A DNA stretch of 64,000 nucleotides, taken from contig JAFLYY010000001.1 in NCBI GenBank assembly GCA_029785825.1, positions 713,374 through 777,373 of the forward strand, written 5' to 3'. Each line of letters opens with the position of its first letter. The first letter of the stretch is position 1. Positions 938 through 33,873 of this stretch are shown piece by piece. Origin of the DNA: Nitrososphaerota archaeon. GTDB taxonomy: Archaea > Thermoproteota > Nitrososphaeria > Nitrososphaerales > Gagatemarchaeaceae. The position numbers and the translations under genes were made by a program. The notes beneath the pieces are model-generated. The model saw nothing but the letters and a program-made list of their open reading frames with translations. It had not been told where the DNA came from and did not search any database.

Positions 938-1966
938 TTACTTGGAGCCCAGCCTCTGCCTGAGCTTCGTCAGGAGCCCGGTAGGGAGTGGGTCGACCCC
1001 CCTCAGCACGGCCAGATAGTAAGACGCCATGTCCAGCTTGTAGGCCATGGTGGCGAGCTCCGCCAGGGCCGAAGGGCCCGAGCCTTCCACGGAGATTGGG
1101 ACGGCGCCCCTTAGCCTTATCGCGGAGCCGAACCACCCCATCCTCGTCGACATCTTCGGGTCGTCGGCGGAACAGCGCAGCAGAATCGGGACGAAACGCC
1201 GGTCAGGGCTCTCCCAGGTCTCGACGTCGTTGTGCATGGCCTCCGGGACCTCCTCGAAGAAGGCGTGGGTCTTCGCGTTCTCGTTGACGGAGTTGCAGAA
1301 CCTGACCCCGACCCCTCTCGTCACCCGCGTCCCGTAGACCTTGGGCGTGGACCTGCGGACGGCGAGGGCGAGCGACTTCGCGGCGTTTCTCGGCGCCGGT
1401 ACGTCGGCGGACAGCCCCCTCCACGCCGACCCGAGCGCCTCTGCGGCCTGTTCGGCTTCGGCCCCGGCGGAGAGCCCCAGGGCCGCGTCGATGATCCTGA
1501 CGCAAGCGAACAGCATCGCCGGAGTGCCGTATCTGGGGGCCTTCACGGTCGGCAGCCCGACGAACGGGACCCCGGACGCCTCGGCCAGCTCCTTCATCTC
1601 TCCTCCCCCGGACACCACGACCACGTCCGCCCCCTTCGTAATCGCCGACTTCGTCATCCCTATCGTCTCCAGAGTCCCCCCGGAGGCGCTGCAGGCGAGG
1701 GCGAGGGTCCCCTTCATGTCGCCGCCGGGGATGGCCCCTTTGTACACCGAGACCTCCCTCGCGTCCCTCGCGAAGAGCCACCCGGAGATTATGTCGCCGG
1801 CTGACGCTGACCCTCCCATCCCGAGGAAGACGACGCGGGAGTAGCCTCCCCCGGAGAAAGGGCCCGCCGCGGAGAGCCCTTGCCGCGCCAGCGCGGGCCA
1901 CTCGCGATAGATGGAGTAGACGTCTGACCTGTCCACCCGCGGCTGACCCCCGAACTGGTCTTTCAA
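938..1966 (-). CDS. Bifunctional phosphoglucose/phosphomannose isomerase
   Basis: Interconverts fructose 6-phosphate with glucose 6-phosphate and mannose 6-phosphate, feeding nucleotide-sugar synthesis and central carbon metabolism. The 342-residue product has two SIS sugar-isomerase halves: LGMGGSASAGD near residue 50 is the first phosphate-binding loop, and VVVSGGGEM near residue 118 lies in the middle. SVNENAK and PEAMHND carry the active-site Glu and His of archaeal PGI/PMI enzymes. Length is normal for the family. The start is TTG, 19 bases after the stop of the beta-helix gene, suggesting one transcript with the two upstream sugar genes. Confidence 0.88.
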   Translation of the reverse strand: MKDQFGGQPRVDRSDVYSIYREWPALARQGLSAAGPFSGGGYSRVVFLGMGGSASAGDIISGWLFARDAREVSVYKGAIPGGDMKGTLALACSASGGTLETIGMTKSAITKGADVVVVSGGGEMKELAEASGVPFVGLPTVKAPRYGTPAMLFACVRIIDAALGLSAGAEAEQAAEALGSAWRGLSADVPAPRNAAKSLALAVRRSTPKVYGTRVTRGVGVRFCNSVNENAKTHAFFEEVPEAMHNDVETWESPDRRFVPILLRCSADDPKMSTRMGWFGSAIRLRGAVPISVEGSGPSALAELATMAYKLDMASYYLAVLRGVDPLPTGLLTKLRQRLGSK

Positions 1967-1985: not shown

Positions 1986-3248
1986 TCAAGAAGACGCTGC
2001 CGTCCAGCCTATCTTCCCTTTCTTTGCGCCGGCGCTCTTCCGTTCCTGAGACGTGTCCGCGAAGGCCCTCCTTATCGCCGCCTCCTCTTCCCTGGAGAGG
2101 ACGAGCCCCCGCCTCTCCATCATCCTCCTCTGCGTTTCGAGGACCGATTCGAGGACTAGTTCGACCTTCTTTTCTGCCGCTCCGTCGAAGTAGGTGAAGC
2201 TCGGGACATCCGAGGCGGCCAGTCCCGAGACGTGCGACCCGGTCCCCACGGACCTCCCGGCGTGGACGAGGGAGCCGATGGAGAGCTTGGCCATGTCTCC
2301 CACCACTGGGCCGAGCTTGACCATCCCGCTGTCCACCCTCTCCGCGGCCACGGTCGGCCTGACGGTACCGTAGGTGTTCTTCAGGTTGCTGAACGTGCAC
2401 CCGGCCCCGAGGTTGACCCAGGACCCGACGTAGGAGTCGCCTACGTATCCGTGGTGCGCCTTGTTGGTGTACGGCATGATTATCGAGTTCTCGACCTGCC
2501 CGCCGATCTTGCACCCTTCGAAGACGGAGGTCCCGCCCCCGATGAGGGCCGAGTACACCTTCGTCCTGGGGCCGATGTAGCACGGCCCCATTATCCTGCT
2601 GAAGCTCTCCACGGACGCCCCCCTGTCGATGACGATGGGCCCCAGCCTCGCATCGAACGTCGTCTTCCCCTCCACCTCCGCGGTGCCTTCCACCATCAGG
2701 TTCGTCGCGGGCCCCCTCACCTCCGCCTCCCTCGGCAGCGTCAGCGGGTCTTCGAACCTCTTCGACTGCTCCGCGATCGCGAGCCCGTTGCTCTCGACCA
2801 GGTCCCAGTAACCGCCGAAGAGCGGGTCCTGCGGAGGGGCGACCTTCTTCGCCTTCCTGACGACGCCCGCGACCGCGCCTTTCGTCAGCACCCCGGGTCT
2901 GAAAGGGACGGTGTCGAGCCGCGCGGCGACCAGCGTCCCCCCCGCGACCGCAGCGAACGGCTCCGAGGAGGAAGCGGGAGAGACGAGTTCCGGCGTGGGC
3001 CTGGCCCGGGCGTTCACGAAGAAGGCGGGCCCGCGGACCTTCTCGTTGTACTGCCTCCCGGTGACCTCCCTGGACAGGGCGGCGAGCTCCGGCCTCCCCC
3101 AGAGGATTGGCTCCCTGGCGTCGGGTATCCGCTCCAGGAGGGCGGCGAGGAGGGTCTTCGTCCCCCAGCGGAGGAGGCTGGTGTGCCTCAGCCGGACGAG
3201 GGGCCCGAAGCCTGCGATGCCCTCGTCTTCGAAGACGACTACCTTCGT
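1986..3248 (-). CDS. GlmU-like sugar-phosphate transferase with left-handed beta-helix (start codon ACG as read)
   Basis: Putative sugar-nucleotide nucleotidyltransferase/acyltransferase of the alternative GlmU family. The first ordinary start is GTG at 3017 (343 residues), but the same frame stays open upstream and reads VVVFEDEGIAGFG, PLVRLRHTSLLRWGTKTLL and QYNEKVRGPAFFVNAR, the typical N-terminus of this family. That would give about 420 residues. The only start-like position is ACG at 3246-3248, which overlaps the end of the preceding gene. The C-terminal half (about residues 170-350) shows hexapeptide-repeat features such as GASVESFSRIMGPCYIGPRT and NSIIMPYTNKAHHGYVGDSY. It lies between two sugar genes on one strand. 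Family is fairly sure; the exact reaction is not. Confidence 0.75.
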   Translation of the reverse strand, partial: TKVVVFEDEGIAGFGPLVRLRHTSLLRWGTKTLLAALLERIPDAREPILWGRPELAALSREVTGRQYNEKVRGPAFFVNARARPTPELVSPASSSEPFAAVAGGTLVAARLDTVPFRPGVLTKGAVAGVVRKAKKVAPPQDPLFGGYWDLVESNGLAIAEQSKRFEDPLTLPREAEVRGPATNLMVEGTAEVEGKTTFDARLGPIVIDRGASVESFSRIMGPCYIGPRTKVYSALIGGGTSVFEGCKIGGQVENSIIMPYTNKAHHGYVGDSYVGSWVNLGAGCTFSNLKNTYGTVRPTVAAERVDSGMVKLGPVVGDMAKLSIGSLVHAGRSVGTGSHVSGLAASDVPSFTYFDGAAEKKVELVLESVLETQRRMMERRGLVLSREEEAAIRRAFADTSQERKSAGAKKGKIGWTAASS

Positions 3249-4024
3249 GGCTGGGTACCCCCGCCCTGGAGGTCCTTGGTGTACACGTCGTTGGCTTCCT
3301 TGAAGGACTTCCTGTCGCCTATGTCCATGAAGGAGCCCTCGACCTTGACCGCGTAGATGCGTGCCCCCTTCGACCCCGCCTCCTTGAACGCGTCGTTCAT
3401 TTCATAGATCTTCCCCGGGGTGATGAACTTCAGGAACTCCTTCTCCATGATGTAACACCCGACGTTGATGTACCCGGATATGGTAGGCTTCTCCTTCCAC
3501 TCCACCAGCCTGCCGTCCTTGTCGGTCTCCATGAAGCCGTACTTCAGCTCGGTGCTGTACTTCATCAGGACCATAGTGGCGGCCGCCTTCTTCTTCGCAT
3601 GGAAGTCGACCGCCTTCCCGAGGTCGAAGTCCAGGAGCTGGTCACCATAGATGCAGACGAACCTCCCCCTGACCTTCGGCTCGGCCGCCTTCAGCTGTCC
3701 CGCCGTCCCGAGGGGACGCGGCGAGGTCGCGTAAGTGATCCGCATCCCCCACTCTTTGCCGGAACCGAAATAATCCTGCAGCATCTTACCGAGATACCCT
3801 GTGGACACCACTACGTCGGTGATCCCCCCCTTCTTCAGCCACTCGAGGATGTGCTCCATTATGGGCTTCGGGCCCACCGGGAGCATCGGCTTGGGGAGGA
3901 GGAAGGTGTACGGCCGGAGCCTCGTCCCGAGGCCGCCGGCGAGAATCACTGCCTGCAGTTTATTGTCCTTCAGCGGGCCCTCCTCTTGGGGCGAGGCTCG
4001 CGACTTCGTCCTTATACGCTTCAT
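3239..4024 (-). CDS. Sugar-1-phosphate nucleotidyltransferase (NTP_transferase family)
   Basis: Makes an NDP-sugar from NTP and sugar 1-phosphate. After a basic leader, residues 22-60 carry the signature LQAVILAGGLGTRLRPYT and PKPMLPVGPKPIMEHILEW. VVSTGYLG, IYGDQLLDFDLG (metal-binding Asp) and NVGCYIMEKEFL follow in the usual order. At 261 residues it is a catalytic domain only, without the beta-helix tail; the next gene downstream supplies such a helix. The ATG at 4024 overlaps the end of the upstream gene by 65 bases, and homology starts only near residue 22, so the first 20 residues are doubtful. As read it ends QPRR-stop; with A at 3247 it would end at TGA in an ATGA overlap. The nucleotide and sugar specificity (GDP-mannose, dTDP- or UDP-glucose) cannot be read. 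Confidence 0.85.
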   Translation of the reverse strand: MKRIRTKSRASPQEEGPLKDNKLQAVILAGGLGTRLRPYTFLLPKPMLPVGPKPIMEHILEWLKKGGITDVVVSTGYLGKMLQDYFGSGKEWGMRITYATSPRPLGTAGQLKAAEPKVRGRFVCIYGDQLLDFDLGKAVDFHAKKKAAATMVLMKYSTELKYGFMETDKDGRLVEWKEKPTISGYINVGCYIMEKEFLKFITPGKIYEMNDAFKEAGSKGARIYAVKVEGSFMDIGDRKSFKEANDVYTKDLQGGGTQPRR

Positions 4025-4679
4025 CAGTCCCTGATAGGATGCACGGGTCCACGACGAGCCCCCTCACCCCCAGGGCGACGGCCCCGGCGATGTCCGAGCG
4101 GGCGAGCTTCTTCTGGGTCCGGAGGAGGACCGGCCTGGCCGAGAGCCGGGCTATCACCCCCAGGGTCGCGTAGTCGAGGGCGCTGAAAGGGGCGCCGCGC
4201 AGCTGGTGGGGGACGGTCGCCACGTCCAATGCCTCCACCCCTTCGATCTCGGAGAGCTGCCTGACCTGCTCCAGTATGTACCCTGTGGCTATGGCGGTGA
4301 TCTTCTTCACCCGAGTGTCGGAGAGGACGAAGGTGGGCATCTGATGGGCGTACATCTCCACGAAGCTGAACGAGCTCGACATTATCCTCTCCCAGTACTC
4401 CTCCGTGAGGAGCCGCGCCCCCCCGACGAAGATGCCGCAGGGGACTGAGACCGTCGAGATCACGTCGTTGATGTAGACGTCGTGCAGGTCATAGCTGCCG
4501 AAGTGGTTCGGCGACGAGTTTTCGTCCCCCTCGACGTTGAGCATGACGGCGTCGGCGCCCCCCTCGACCGCCTGGACCGCCAAGGAGGTGCTGTTCTTCG
4601 GAAGGCTGGCGATGACGGAGTAGTCCCTCCCCTGAGACACGACCTCCAGCGGCCTTCGCAGCTGGCCTACCGACTCCAT
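3960..4679 (-). CDS. Predicted TIM-barrel protein of unknown function
   Basis: I do not recognise a characterised family. The 239-residue product shows alternating strand-helix units typical of phosphate-binding TIM barrels: SVIASLPKNS at the start, VEGGADAVMLNVEGDENSS, VSVPCGIFVGGA, VEALDVATVP and a final VALGVRGLVVDPCILSGTDE that resembles a C-terminal phosphate site. It heads the group of sugar genes on the minus strand and overlaps the nucleotidyltransferase gene, so a role in sugar-phosphate metabolism (epimerase or aldolase type) is a reasonable inference only. ATG start at 4679. Confidence 0.6.
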   Translation of the reverse strand: MESVGQLRRPLEVVSQGRDYSVIASLPKNSTSLAVQAVEGGADAVMLNVEGDENSSPNHFGSYDLHDVYINDVISTVSVPCGIFVGGARLLTEEYWERIMSSSFSFVEMYAHQMPTFVLSDTRVKKITAIATGYILEQVRQLSEIEGVEALDVATVPHQLRGAPFSALDYATLGVIARLSARPVLLRTQKKLARSDIAGAVALGVRGLVVDPCILSGTDEAYKDEVASLAPRGGPAEGQ

Positions 4680-7584: not shown

Positions 7585-9177
7585 GTGCCTCTTCAATTCG
7601 GCCTGGTTGCCCTTGATATCATAGTATCTTGGATCAGGATGATACTCGCCCTCGGGCTGAGCATCGTCTTCGCCCTCACAGTAGGCATCCTGGCGGCGAG
7701 GAACAAGAGGGCGGAAGGGGTGATACTCCCGCTCCTGGACATATTCCAGTCCATCCCCATCCTGGGGTTCTTCCCCTTCGTCATAGTTGCCATCTACGGC
7801 CCTCCGGGGTTCGCGCTGCACAACTTCATCGGGGCGAACGTCGCCGTCATCGTCCTCATATTCACGAGCATGTCCTGGAACATAGCCTTCGGTGTGTACG
7901 AGTCGGTGAAGGCGATCCCCCAAGACTACGCTGACCTCCTCAACGTGTCCCAAGCCAGCTCCTGGCAGAGGATCAGGAGCCTCTACATCCCGGCCTCCAT
8001 GAGCAGGATCGCCTACAACACCCAGATCTCGTGGGCGGTGGGGCTCTTCTTCCTGGTGGCCAGCGAGATCATCAGCTCGGGCTCGACCAGCATCCCGGTG
8101 GGGTACGGCATAGGGGTCGCGGTGTCTGAGTTCGTCTTTCCCACCTTCGACTACGCCAACTACGTCCTTCTCGTGGCAGGCATCGTGGTGGCCGTCGTCA
8201 TCTGGAGGTTCCTCTTCCTCAGGGAGTTCGCCCTCTGGTCGGAGAAGTACAAGATGATGGAGGAGCCGAGGGAGGTCAGGCGGGACCCTGTCCTGAGGTT
8301 CTACTCGTGGGTCAGCCACCGAAGCGTGTCGAAGCTCTTCCTGATAGGCCAGGGGAGGGGGGTGACGCGGTTCACCTCATCCATCGCCAGGTTCAGGAAG
8401 GGACTGAGGTACGCGGTCCTGATATTTCTGGGGCTGTTCTTCCTGGTCGTGGCGGCGGCCATAGGGTCTTCCGGGGGCCTCGGAGCCATCTCCATCCCCT
8501 CGCCTTCGTACCTCGTCTCGCGAGAGCTGTTCGTGATCTACAACCTGGCCGTGTCCTTCGTCCGCGTCTGGTTCGTGGTGGCCATCTGCGTCGCCATCGG
8601 GCTCCCCCTCGGCATAGTGGTGTCGCTGAACTTCAAGCTCTACGACACGGTGTCGCCGCTGCTGGAGGTCATCTCCTCGATCCCGGCCCCGATCCTCCTC
8701 CCGGCCATCCTCCTCATCCCCCTGATCGGGAGGAACCCGGAGGCCGTGGCGGATCTCGTGATACTCCTCTCGGTGTTCTGGTACATAGTCTTCAACGTGA
8801 TGGCGGGGGTCAGGACCCTCCCCGCCGACATGAAGGAGCTCCCCCGGGTTTACAGGGTCGGGAGGACGTCGGCCTGGAGGAACGTCTACATCCCGAGCGC
8901 GATAACCGCCCTGGTCACCGGGGCGATTACCGCTGTGGGCGGAGCCTGGAACGCGCTGATCGTGGCCGAGTACTTCCAGCTGGACCCGTCCAGCCCTCCG
9001 CTCTCCCAGGTCCAGTCGGGGATCGGGAAGGTCATCACGATAGCTACCAACAAGGGGGACAACCTCACCCTCTTCCTAGCGGTGTCAACCATGACCGTGC
9101 TGATAGTGGGTTTCAACCTCACGGTCTGGCGGAGGCTGTACAACCGCGCCACGAGGCGCTACACTTACAACAGGTAG
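7585..9177 (+). CDS. ABC transporter permease, two fused permease domains (NitT/TauT type)
   Basis: A 530-residue membrane protein made of two BPD_transp_1 permease halves. Each half has an EAA-type coupling loop: SSWQRIRSLYIPASMSRI near residue 130 and SAWRNVYIPSAITALVTG near residue 435. The halves are joined by a charged cytoplasmic linker at about residues 215-275. Fused double permeases of this kind serve nitrate, sulfonate or related anion importers. The matching ATPase is at 10739 and an AAA-associated domain protein at 11577. No solute-binding protein lies in the window. GTG start. Confidence 0.82.
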   Translation: MPLQFGLVALDIIVSWIRMILALGLSIVFALTVGILAARNKRAEGVILPLLDIFQSIPILGFFPFVIVAIYGPPGFALHNFIGANVAVIVLIFTSMSWNIAFGVYESVKAIPQDYADLLNVSQASSWQRIRSLYIPASMSRIAYNTQISWAVGLFFLVASEIISSGSTSIPVGYGIGVAVSEFVFPTFDYANYVLLVAGIVVAVVIWRFLFLREFALWSEKYKMMEEPREVRRDPVLRFYSWVSHRSVSKLFLIGQGRGVTRFTSSIARFRKGLRYAVLIFLGLFFLVVAAAIGSSGGLGAISIPSPSYLVSRELFVIYNLAVSFVRVWFVVAICVAIGLPLGIVVSLNFKLYDTVSPLLEVISSIPAPILLPAILLIPLIGRNPEAVADLVILLSVFWYIVFNVMAGVRTLPADMKELPRVYRVGRTSAWRNVYIPSAITALVTGAITAVGGAWNALIVAEYFQLDPSSPPLSQVQSGIGKVITIATNKGDNLTLFLAVSTMTVLIVGFNLTVWRRLYNRATRRYTYNR

Positions 9178-28347: not shown

Positions 28348-28830
28348 ATGGCCCTCTCCCCCCTTTTTCCGCTCCGCCCTGCCAGGAGGCAAGGGGTGAG
28401 CGAGATATTCGCCGCCGTCCTGATGATAGGGGTCACGCTTTCCCTCGGAGGCCTCGTGGCCGCGGGCGCCGCCAGCCAGTTCAGCCTCGGGACCCAGTCC
28501 GCTTCCCTGGGGGCGGCGGCGGTGCAGAGGTCCGCCGGAGCCCAGCTCAGCCTTGCCTTCGCGGCGGTCCCGCAGTCCGCGTCATGCCCCTCCTACAAAG
28601 GAGCCGAGGAGGGGACCACCCTCGTGGTCGGCCTGTTCGACTATGGCTCCGTCCCCTTCGACCCCGCGGGGTTCGCTGTCAACTCCACCGTGTACACCGG
28701 GAGCTTCGGCCCGGTAGCCGCCGGGGGGCTCGCCCAGTTCGCGGTCCCGCTCGGGACGTGCGTCCATCAGTCAGGGCAGACGGTGGTCGCCTTCGACGCC
28801 ATGGGAGACGAGGTGCAGCTTGAGACCTAG
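28348..28830 (+). CDS. Type IV pilin-like protein 2 (class III signal peptide)
   Basis: A 160-residue prepilin. RPARRQG is followed by VSEIFAAVLMIGVTLSLGGL: a positively charged tail, a cleavage Gly and a hydrophobic helix with Glu at mature position 3, as in archaeal pilins and archaellins. The C-terminal domain has two Cys (CPSY, GTCV) that could pair. ATG start 11 bases after pilin 1. Confidence 0.78.
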   Translation: MALSPLFPLRPARRQGVSEIFAAVLMIGVTLSLGGLVAAGAASQFSLGTQSASLGAAAVQRSAGAQLSLAFAAVPQSASCPSYKGAEEGTTLVVGLFDYGSVPFDPAGFAVNSTVYTGSFGPVAAGGLAQFAVPLGTCVHQSGQTVVAFDAMGDEVQLET

Positions 28831-30278: not shown

Positions 30279-31679
30279 TCAGGCGCCGATTTCGATCCGC
30301 TGGGAGAAGAACCGCCGCGTCAGGCCGCTCGGCGGGGAGTCGAAATTGTCCACGCTCACCACCACGGGGAGGTCCCTCACGGCGTACCCCAGCATCAGGC
30401 ACATCCGCGGCGGCAGGGTCCTCACTATGGCCTTGACGGTGTCCGCGTCAGCCATGGAAGCCTGCGACACCATGGCGAGGTCGGAGTCGTTGCTGAAGTT
30501 GTAGAGGAATATGTTGTCCACCTGGCGGTAGATCTTCTGGTCTATGGCGTCGGGCTGGTTGGTCACGAAGACGGTGAAGACACCGAAGTGCCGCATCCTT
30601 GTGATCAGGTCCTCCCAGTACGTGTCCCTCAGGTAGAGGTGCGCCTCCTCGGCGAAGAGGAAGACAGGGGGGATCTTCCGCCGCTCCAGGAGGTCGACTA
30701 TCTTCGAGAGCATCAGCTCCACGACCATCTTCCTGTTCAGGGGCGAGACCCCGCTCAGAGAAACCACCAGGGTCCCTCCTTTCCTGTTCAGGGTGAAGAA
30801 GTCCTGGAGGTCGACCTGCAGGTGGGCCGAGTCGGTGAAGAGGCCGCATGAGGCGAGGGTGTGGTAGCGCGCGAAGAGGGCGTCCCTCACGAACTCGTTG
30901 CACCTCCACTGCTGTATCGCCGCCTCTAAAGACGCCAGCGAGAGCTCGTCCCTGCTGTCAAGCTGCTCCCATATCTTCACGAACTCCCTGAGGGAGGTCC
31001 CCGGCATGTCCAGGGAGTGGGAGAGGAGGTTGGTGATGGGGCGGAGGCCCACCGACGCGAGGGAGAACTTCAGGTCCCGCCCCGGCCTGAGGACCTTCAC
31101 CTTCTGCCCCACCCCGGTGTCCGACCCGTCCTCTCGCTGCCCCACCGACCCGTATTCGTCGTTCAGGTCGAAGACCACCGAGTAGGCGTCGTTCGCGAGG
31201 AGCCCCCGCAGCAGCATCTTGGCCAGGTGGGACTTGCCTGACTCCTTCCGCCCCGTGATCACGGTTATCCTCCCATCCAGCGCCTCCGCGGGGATCCCGA
31301 AGGGGGACTCCCCGTCCACCGTGCCGACCCTTATCGTCCTCGACCCCAGGGGGGCCACCGTCCCCGCGAGGTCCTCGACGAGGAGCCGCGAGACCCTGGA
31401 GCTGGTCCTCGACGGCATCCAGTTGACCCTGGGGGTGAGCTTTCCGCCCGTTATGGTCCCCCTGGCCTTGCAGAGGAGAATCCTCATGTCGCGTATCAGG
31501 GTGGAGATCGTCGCCAGCCCGGTCGGGTCCGACGTCACCCCAGGGGCCGAGGCGGAGAGCACCTCTTCCCTGGATATCTCCTCCTCTATCCCTTCGACGT
31601 CGAGGTACCTCTCGTCGTAGACCTGGAGCACCAGGTCTCTTTCAGGCTCGGAAGCCACCAGGTAGTCCCCTATGCGCAC
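30279..31679 (-). CDS. herA: HerA-type DNA translocase ATPase
   Basis: Hexameric ATPase that pumps DNA ends for resection together with NurA. The 466-residue chain has a HAS-barrel-like N-terminus, Walker A TGRKESGKSHLAKMLLRG near residue 140, FDLNDEYG, Walker B PVFLFAEEAHLYLRD and the HerA-specific FGVFTVFVTNQPDAIDQKI. The GTG at 31679 is the first accepted start, but the frame reads GAKILKKEGDDILVVASPRE directly upstream, which looks like the first HAS-barrel strands, so the true start may lie near 31745, overlapping nurA. The gene follows nurA on the same strand. Confidence 0.85.
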   Translation of the reverse strand: MRIGDYLVASEPERDLVLQVYDERYLDVEGIEEEISREEVLSASAPGVTSDPTGLATISTLIRDMRILLCKARGTITGGKLTPRVNWMPSRTSSRVSRLLVEDLAGTVAPLGSRTIRVGTVDGESPFGIPAEALDGRITVITGRKESGKSHLAKMLLRGLLANDAYSVVFDLNDEYGSVGQREDGSDTGVGQKVKVLRPGRDLKFSLASVGLRPITNLLSHSLDMPGTSLREFVKIWEQLDSRDELSLASLEAAIQQWRCNEFVRDALFARYHTLASCGLFTDSAHLQVDLQDFFTLNRKGGTLVVSLSGVSPLNRKMVVELMLSKIVDLLERRKIPPVFLFAEEAHLYLRDTYWEDLITRMRHFGVFTVFVTNQPDAIDQKIYRQVDNIFLYNFSNDSDLAMVSQASMADADTVKAIVRTLPPRMCLMLGYAVRDLPVVVSVDNFDSPPSGLTRRFFSQRIEIGA

Positions 31680-31741
31680 CCTCTCCCTTGGAGAAGCTAC
31701 GACGAGGATGTCGTCCCCCTCCTTCTTGAGTATCTTCGCGC

Positions 31742-32913: not shown

Positions 32914-33333
32914 ATGTCCGAGAACCCCACCCCGACCAGCGTGACTGTCAAGCTGAAGAGAGGCGCATGGGAGATAGAGATCACCACTCAGGAGGGGAAG
33001 GTCCAGCAGGCGGTGGAGAGTGTGCTGGCAGGGATGGCCTCCAAAGAGCCCATGCTGGTGCAGGCGCAGGAACCGGAGGCGGCGCAGCGGAGGTTCGAGA
33101 CCTGCCGGGGAGTCCTATTGACGATGTGGAAGGAGGGATGGTTCGCGTCTCCGAGGGCCCTTTCGGAGGCCCACGAGGAGATGAGCAGGCGGGGCTACCA
33201 CTACGACAGGACCGCCGTCTCGCACACGCTGGTGGACCTGGTGCGGGAAGGGTCGCTCTTCAGGGACGGGAGCATGAGGAACTACACGTACATCCAGAAG
33301 CACCCGTTCAAGGCGCAGTCCGGAACTTCTTAG
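32914..33333 (+). CDS. Winged-helix protein with N-terminal beta domain (1 of 3)
   Basis: A 139-residue protein. Residues 8-45 form a short beta unit (SVTVKLKRGAWEIEITTQEG, then VQQAVESVL); residues 60-135 form a winged-helix-like unit (RGVLLTMWKEGWFASPRAL, RTAVSHTLVDLVREGSLFRD). Its layout matches the product of 33979-34479. The ATG at 32914 starts just before the beta unit; the longer frame upstream is not conserved in style. It is divergent from nurA-herA and is a candidate regulator of the palindrome between them. Confidence 0.58.
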   Translation: MSENPTPTSVTVKLKRGAWEIEITTQEGKVQQAVESVLAGMASKEPMLVQAQEPEAAQRRFETCRGVLLTMWKEGWFASPRALSEAHEEMSRRGYHYDRTAVSHTLVDLVREGSLFRDGSMRNYTYIQKHPFKAQSGTS

Positions 33334-33829
33334 ACAGCTGTTCGCTCAGCCTGCTGGCGCCGACGGTCGTTATCCTGTACTTCCCGCCCTGGTCGGAGCC
33401 GAGGCGCTCGACCGTGGCGGACTTTGTGAGCTCGCTCAGGCGCGAGCTTATGGTCTTGGGGTAGAGCCCCGTAGCGGCCTCTATCTCCCCTGCCCCCATG
33501 GCGTCCGACAGCAGTTTCCCGCTGAGGTTGGAGATCTTGGCAGCCACGAGCTGGAGCAGGATGACGTCCCTGTCGCTCAGCTTTTTGTCCTGGGTCCATA
33601 CCCGCGGGCCTTCAGGGGTCACACGGACGTACTCCCTGAACATCTGGACGAGGTCGTTGAGGGAGTGGTTCACGCTGATCGCCCTCGCGAGGTCCATGTT
33701 GGGGATTATCTTGGAGACGAACTCGTGCAGGGAGCGCATGACCACTTCAGGCGGGCCCGAGAACTCGGTCCTGTCTTCCCCATAGCTCACGGACACCCGA
33801 AGCTCCCTATCGCTGGACAACCCGAACAC
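33308..33829 (-). CDS. Winged-helix protein with N-terminal beta domain (2 of 3)
   Basis: A 173-residue predicted regulator: N-terminal beta unit RELRVSVSYGEDRTEFSGPP followed by VVMRSLHEFVSKIIPNMDL, then a helical linker and a C-terminal winged helix (LLQLVAAKISNLSGKLL, ATGLYPKTISSRLSEL, GKYRITTVGASRLSEQL). ATG at 33829 with attttaacct 16-25 bases upstream. Its 3' end overlaps gene 1 by 26 bases, convergently. Ligand and targets are unknown. Confidence 0.62.
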   Translation of the reverse strand: MFGLSSDRELRVSVSYGEDRTEFSGPPEVVMRSLHEFVSKIIPNMDLARAISVNHSLNDLVQMFREYVRVTPEGPRVWTQDKKLSDRDVILLQLVAAKISNLSGKLLSDAMGAGEIEAATGLYPKTISSRLSELTKSATVERLGSDQGGKYRITTVGASRLSEQLSKKFRTAP

Positions 33830-33873
33830 GAGCCTTTCTGGTCAGGTTAAAATCAGTATCGAAGGCGGACGGG

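Follow-up and report, generated by a model that had tools for sequence, protein, structure and literature searches.

A conserved ACG triplet as the probable start codon of a GlmU-like gene in a genus of Nitrososphaerota archaea

The gene for a GlmU-like protein in a Nitrososphaerota archaeon very probably starts with an ACG codon (minus strand, 3248-3246), which would be read by the CAU initiator tRNA as part of a genus-wide tolerance of NCG and CTG starts. The gene is located in a window of 64,000 nt (contig JAFLYY010000001.1, positions 713,374 to 777,373), to which the coordinates below refer unless a contig is named. What had been supposed to be a possible sequencing slip appears, from comparison of genome sequences, to be genuine: within one genus of uncultured archaea, a GlmU-like ACG start is present in at least 15 genomes.

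Results

The start region of the GlmU-like gene

The minus strand reads ACGAAGGTAG from 3248 to 3239, with a g on the plus strand at 3247, and is thus one base away from an ATGA stop-start overlap, as pointed out in the original prediction. The surrounding sequence is ...GGGGGTACCCAGCC|ACG AAG GTA GTC GTC TTC GAA GAC GAG GGC..., and two frames cross at the overlap, CCA CGA AGG TAG for the upstream nucleotidyltransferase and ACG AAG GTA GTC for the GlmU-like gene. The nucleotidyltransferase stops at the TAG at 3241-3239, its protein ending in ..TQP-R-R-stop, and it runs two codons past the would-be TGA, which confirms the predicted gain of two residues. The GlmU-like gene was likewise correctly predicted to have no usual start: its first in-frame ATG, GTG or TTG is the GTG at 3017, which is codon 78, and the 51 codons located 5' of the ACG are open in this frame but include no canonical start.

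The GlmU-like product matched the TIGR03991 profile (alt_bact_glmU) with 266.7 bits, compared to a cut-off of 225.3, and the alignment paired residues 2-396 with positions 2-394 of the 394 positions in the profile. Since residue 2 aligns to position 2, the ACG corresponds to the Met1 position of the family, and the conserved N-terminus begins right at this codon, as had been claimed. The gene consequently has a near-cognate codon at Met1 and no canonical start that would spare the conserved N-terminus.

Table 1. Features of the window discussed in the text.
Feature	Position	Strand	Remarks
Phosphoglucose/phosphomannose isomerase-like gene	938..1966	-	downstream, TTG start; PF10432 123 bits; NCBIfam below cut-off
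GlmU-like sugar-1-phosphate nucleotidylyltransferase/acetyltransferase (TIGR03991)	1986..3248	-	420 codons + stop
10-nt overlap, putative ACG start to upstream TAG stop, ACGAAGGTAG	3239..3248	-	kept in 14/14 ACG-clade members
Putative ACG initiation codon, GlmU-like gene	3246..3248	-	family Met1 position; column has ACG in 15 genomes of the genus and CTG, TTG or ATG elsewhere
Shine-Dalgarno-like stretch CGGGGGTA	3256..3263	-	7 nt before ACG, in tail of nucleotidyltransferase
Sugar nucleotidyltransferase (PF00483)	3239..3973	-	start taken as conserved CTG 3973-3971, not ATG 4024
239-aa product, first gene of set	3960..4679	-	overlaps CTG start of nucleotidyltransferase
Pilin-like gene	28348..28830	+	ATG here; same-column ACG in 8 relatives
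HerA-like helicase (PF01935)	30282..31739	-	start column GCG at 31739-31737

The start column of the upstream nucleotidyltransferase contained CTG in 15 of 17 same-genus genomes and was displaced by one codon in the other two, and a stop codon was located immediately 5' of the CTG in G004, G009, G023 and G010. The ATG at 4024 was kept in a single close relative, G013. The 239-aa product (3960-4679), which is encoded beside the sugar-nucleotide genes and for which no match was obtained in Pfam or NCBIfam, was present in 20 genomes of the sample.

Conservation of the ACG codon in relatives

Relatives were collected by genus and family searches and from named assemblies, and included MAGs labelled as Thaumarchaeota, Nitrososphaerota, Nitrososphaerales or plain archaeon. 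The N-terminus of the GlmU-like gene was readable in 20 genomes from the same genus, counting the source genome, and the start column was ACG in 15 of these. The GlmU-like proteins of the other ACG genomes were 58-92% identical to that of the source genome. The remaining same-genus starts were CTG (G025, G012), TTG (G020, G003) and ATG (G002), and outside the genus the column contained ATG (G033, G068, G063, G067, G066), GTG (G064) or CTG (G062), with an ATG one codon on from the column in G034. The predominance of weak codons (CTG, TTG and ACG) in the genus suggests, by inference from the start columns, that there may be selection for low initiation.

In the tree inferred from the GlmU-like proteins, 14 ACG genomes formed one clade (support 100/99) without any reversion. 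Because G005 has ACG outside this clade, two changes are needed to separate ACG from the rest. In-frame stops precede the codon in several genomes: an in-frame TGA is followed by three codons and then the ACG in G021, G001 and G019, and one codon is located between an in-frame TAG and the ACG in G005 (TAG ACG ACG CAG CTG). The next canonical start was found at codon 98 in G001, 132 in G019 and 32 in G005, and G021 contained a GTG at codon 3. On account of these stops, the start in G001, G019 and G005 can be placed within a few codons of the ACG.

The codon at the start was ACG in 14 of 14 clade members. Of 80 further residues (T, G, P, L, R, A or V) that were invariant in the 14 genomes, 1 kept a single codon, and the four other invariant Thr positions used two to four codons each. 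By this measure, the ACG is conserved as a codon and not merely as an invariant Thr.

A related arrangement was observed in G039, which belongs to another family of the order. Its GlmU-like ORF opens with TGA GAG AAG ACG AAG ACC and contains no canonical start for 46 codons beyond the aligned N-terminus, which suggests that an ACG start is used there too and that the use of ACG may reach beyond the genus.

Putative NCG starts in other genes

Judging from the start columns of other genes, the ACG belongs to a more general pattern in the genus, which the original prediction had not foreseen: NCG and CTG starts also occur in other genes, and in several of these NTG alternates with NCG through a T-to-C change like that of the GlmU-like gene. 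The start column of the HerA-like helicase in 24 orthologues contained GTG (7), CTG (7), GCG (4, source included), ATG (2), ACG (2), TTG (1) and TCG (1), so that all 24 codons were NTG or NCG and none was of any other type. At least four changes between NTG and NCG are needed on the HerA tree, and in G016 the ACG is located immediately 3' of a TAG. The pilin-like gene has ATG in G000, G013 and G023, GTG in G021 and ACG in eight genomes, corresponding to at least two NTG/NCG changes, and an in-frame stop was found a few codons 5' of its start in G004, G009, G016 and G019. A gene for an MFS transporter located outside the window mostly starts with ATG or TTG and has an ACG behind AGGTGA in G009, and for the gene at 33311-33842 an ACG in G023 contrasts with ATG, TTG or CTG in the others. 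We did not count as proof the ACG of the MFS gene in G027 and in several paralogues, for which a CTG is present one or two codons upstream.

To the broader proposition that middle-base reading of start codons is relaxed in the genus, and possibly in the order, such that NCG (chiefly ACG) codons are ordinary starts beside NTG and many genes are mis-annotated, we assign even chances.

A further start column was that of an ABC permease at 7585 (plus strand), which has GTG in some species. In G009, G004, G008 and G022 this GTG is lacking, and the column contains GCA preceded by a conserved ATA, which may be the start in these four genomes.

For comparison, the minority codons in 164 internal columns dominated by ATG were CTG, CTC, ATC, GTC and others, of which CTC, ATC and GTC were common, with NCG accounting for only 7%. 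In about 30 further syntenic genes, the start-column codons that had no canonical neighbour were mainly CTG, GCG, ACG, TCG and CTC, and where rare NAG or NGG codons occurred at these columns there was either a canonical start nearby or a doubtful frame. The gene-wide sample was small, comprising some 40 genes in synteny and parts of three genomes. Screens of two species were noisy and gave false NCG hits from shadow frames and relocated starts, and each NCG claim therefore rests on several species. One such candidate, a GCG near 19 kb, was not upheld when several species were aligned, and the true start is an upstream ATG or TTG.

Discussion

Alternative explanations

The original prediction left two options, an error in the assembly or a genuine ACG start. 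An error at 3247, with ATGA as the true sequence, has the attraction that a single transition would yield a textbook 4-nt stop-start overlap, but the same-column ACG was recovered from independently assembled metagenome bins of different projects, including the single-contig G005, and we consider the probability of an error to be practically nil. Comparison with relatives had been proposed as a check, and the finding that 15 of the 20 same-genus genomes share the ACG refutes the error hypothesis, while the conservation of the codon supports the second option. It is also unlikely that the NCG codons are converted to NUG by C-to-U editing of the mRNA, as at starts in plant plastids, so that the ribosome would meet AUG, GUG or UUG. 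Each of ACG, GCG and TCG becomes canonical after one such change, and ACG is a known type of start codon in the genomes of plastids. However, editing cannot explain the CTG starts that are also common in the genus, and we know of no archaeal case of C-to-U editing of mRNA.

The 10-nt overlap of the two frames throughout the ACG clade could also be taken to mean that a -1 frameshift within the overlap, or readthrough of the stop, fuses the GlmU-like part to the nucleotidyltransferase, and two such domains are indeed joined in other GlmU proteins. We found no slippery heptamer in the overlap, and in-frame stops are located 1-3 codons 5' of the ACG in G005, G021, G001 and G019. These are TGA codons in G021, G001 and G019, whereas in G005 a TAG separates the two genes, which share one frame. 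The stops just before the ACG disfavour a frameshifted fusion, as does the outgroup gene, which is free-standing with an ATG or TTG after a stop, making this explanation very unlikely. The remaining alternative is that translation starts elsewhere, either at the distant GTG at 3017, which is the first canonical in-frame start and the one a gene finder would choose, or at another nearby near-cognate triplet. A start at the GTG would delete 77 conserved residues within the part covered by TIGR03991, and no other start-like codon near the N-terminus is common to the ACG clade; we regard a start elsewhere as highly improbable.

Proposed initiation at the ACG codon

If the ACG is the genuine start, an ordinary CAU initiator tRNA would decode it as Met despite a C-A mismatch in the middle position. 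An initiator tRNA gene with the anticodon CAT is present, and there was no sign of a changed initiator anticodon. A loss of aIF1 as the cause of the NCG starts was rejected, since aIF1 (SUI1) was found in 26 of 31 genomes. In Sulfolobus, aIF1 disfavours non-canonical starts (PMC8211752), and its presence counts against initiation at the ACG.

The 3' end of the 16S rRNA carries GATCACCTCCTTA, and the duplex of CGGGGGTA with this end was estimated to -10.0 kcal/mol. The 16S pairing before the ACG in the 15 ACG genomes had a mean of -9.5 kcal/mol, compared to a background of -6.5 (sd 3.3), so that the excess of the Shine-Dalgarno signal over background is modest in this GC-rich genome. In Haloferax and E. 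coli, termination-reinitiation depends strongly on distance (PMC10666635). Here, the stop is located within a few nucleotides of the start, with the 10-nt overlap in the ACG clade and a TAG one codon before the ACG in G005. Lying 7 nt upstream of the stop of the preceding gene and behind a Shine-Dalgarno-like stretch, the ACG would find terminating ribosomes on the spot, and ribosomes that end the nucleotidyltransferase may reinitiate there. The overlap fits such translational coupling, in which the weak codon would probably affect stoichiometry by holding the level of the GlmU-like enzyme below that of the nucleotidyltransferase.

Comparison with known systems

ACG is a near-cognate, lower-output and conserved start in the AAV capsid protein VP2, in plastids and in yeast, and in plastids it is often edited to AUG. 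The GlmU-like gene resembles these eukaryotic viral, plastid and yeast cases in having a putative near-cognate start, probably of lower output, with a conserved codon, but differs in that it is archaeal and has a Shine-Dalgarno-like stretch and a gene overlap. The AUU of infC is one of the rare non-canonical starts in bacteria. Another is the GTC of sigR in Streptomyces (PMC5472188). Both are similar to the ACG in being weak starts confined to one particular gene, where they possibly serve dosage or regulation, but they keep the middle U, whereas here a C takes that position and the pattern extends to several genes within a single genus. The arrangement is also similar to termination-reinitiation at overlapping genes in archaea such as Haloferax volcanii (PMC10666635), where stop and start are located a few nucleotides apart as in ATGA overlaps, except that here reinitiation would take place at an ACG and the two genes share 10 nt.

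A survey of start-codon switches in 36 bacterial and archaeal groups covered AUG, GUG, UUG, CUG and AUU, with no mention of ACG (PMC5622118). Our literature search, which was made in one collection and is no proof of novelty, retrieved descriptions of ACG starts in viruses, in plastids and in genes of animals or yeast, and none in archaea. If NCG starts are indeed natural and conserved in archaea, this would bear on the strictness with which the initiator tRNA, aIF1 and the ribosome inspect the middle base, and on the similarity between archaea and eukaryotes in start selection. Prokaryotic gene finders normally accept only ATG, GTG and TTG, and genes that start with ACG or GCG would therefore be truncated or lost.

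tRNA genes

The initiator tRNA gene (G000:C1:1540740-1540890, plus strand) apparently contains several introns. A length of 83-113 nt is seen in many further tRNA genes of this genome, which ARAGORN missed or misread. Five tRNA genes are arranged in tandem on the second contig (G000:C2:150895-151549), in the order Ser-GCT, Leu-CAG, Leu-CAA, Leu-GAG and Leu-TAG. The main contig has its own Leu tRNAs despite this cluster, which is perhaps a mobile element.
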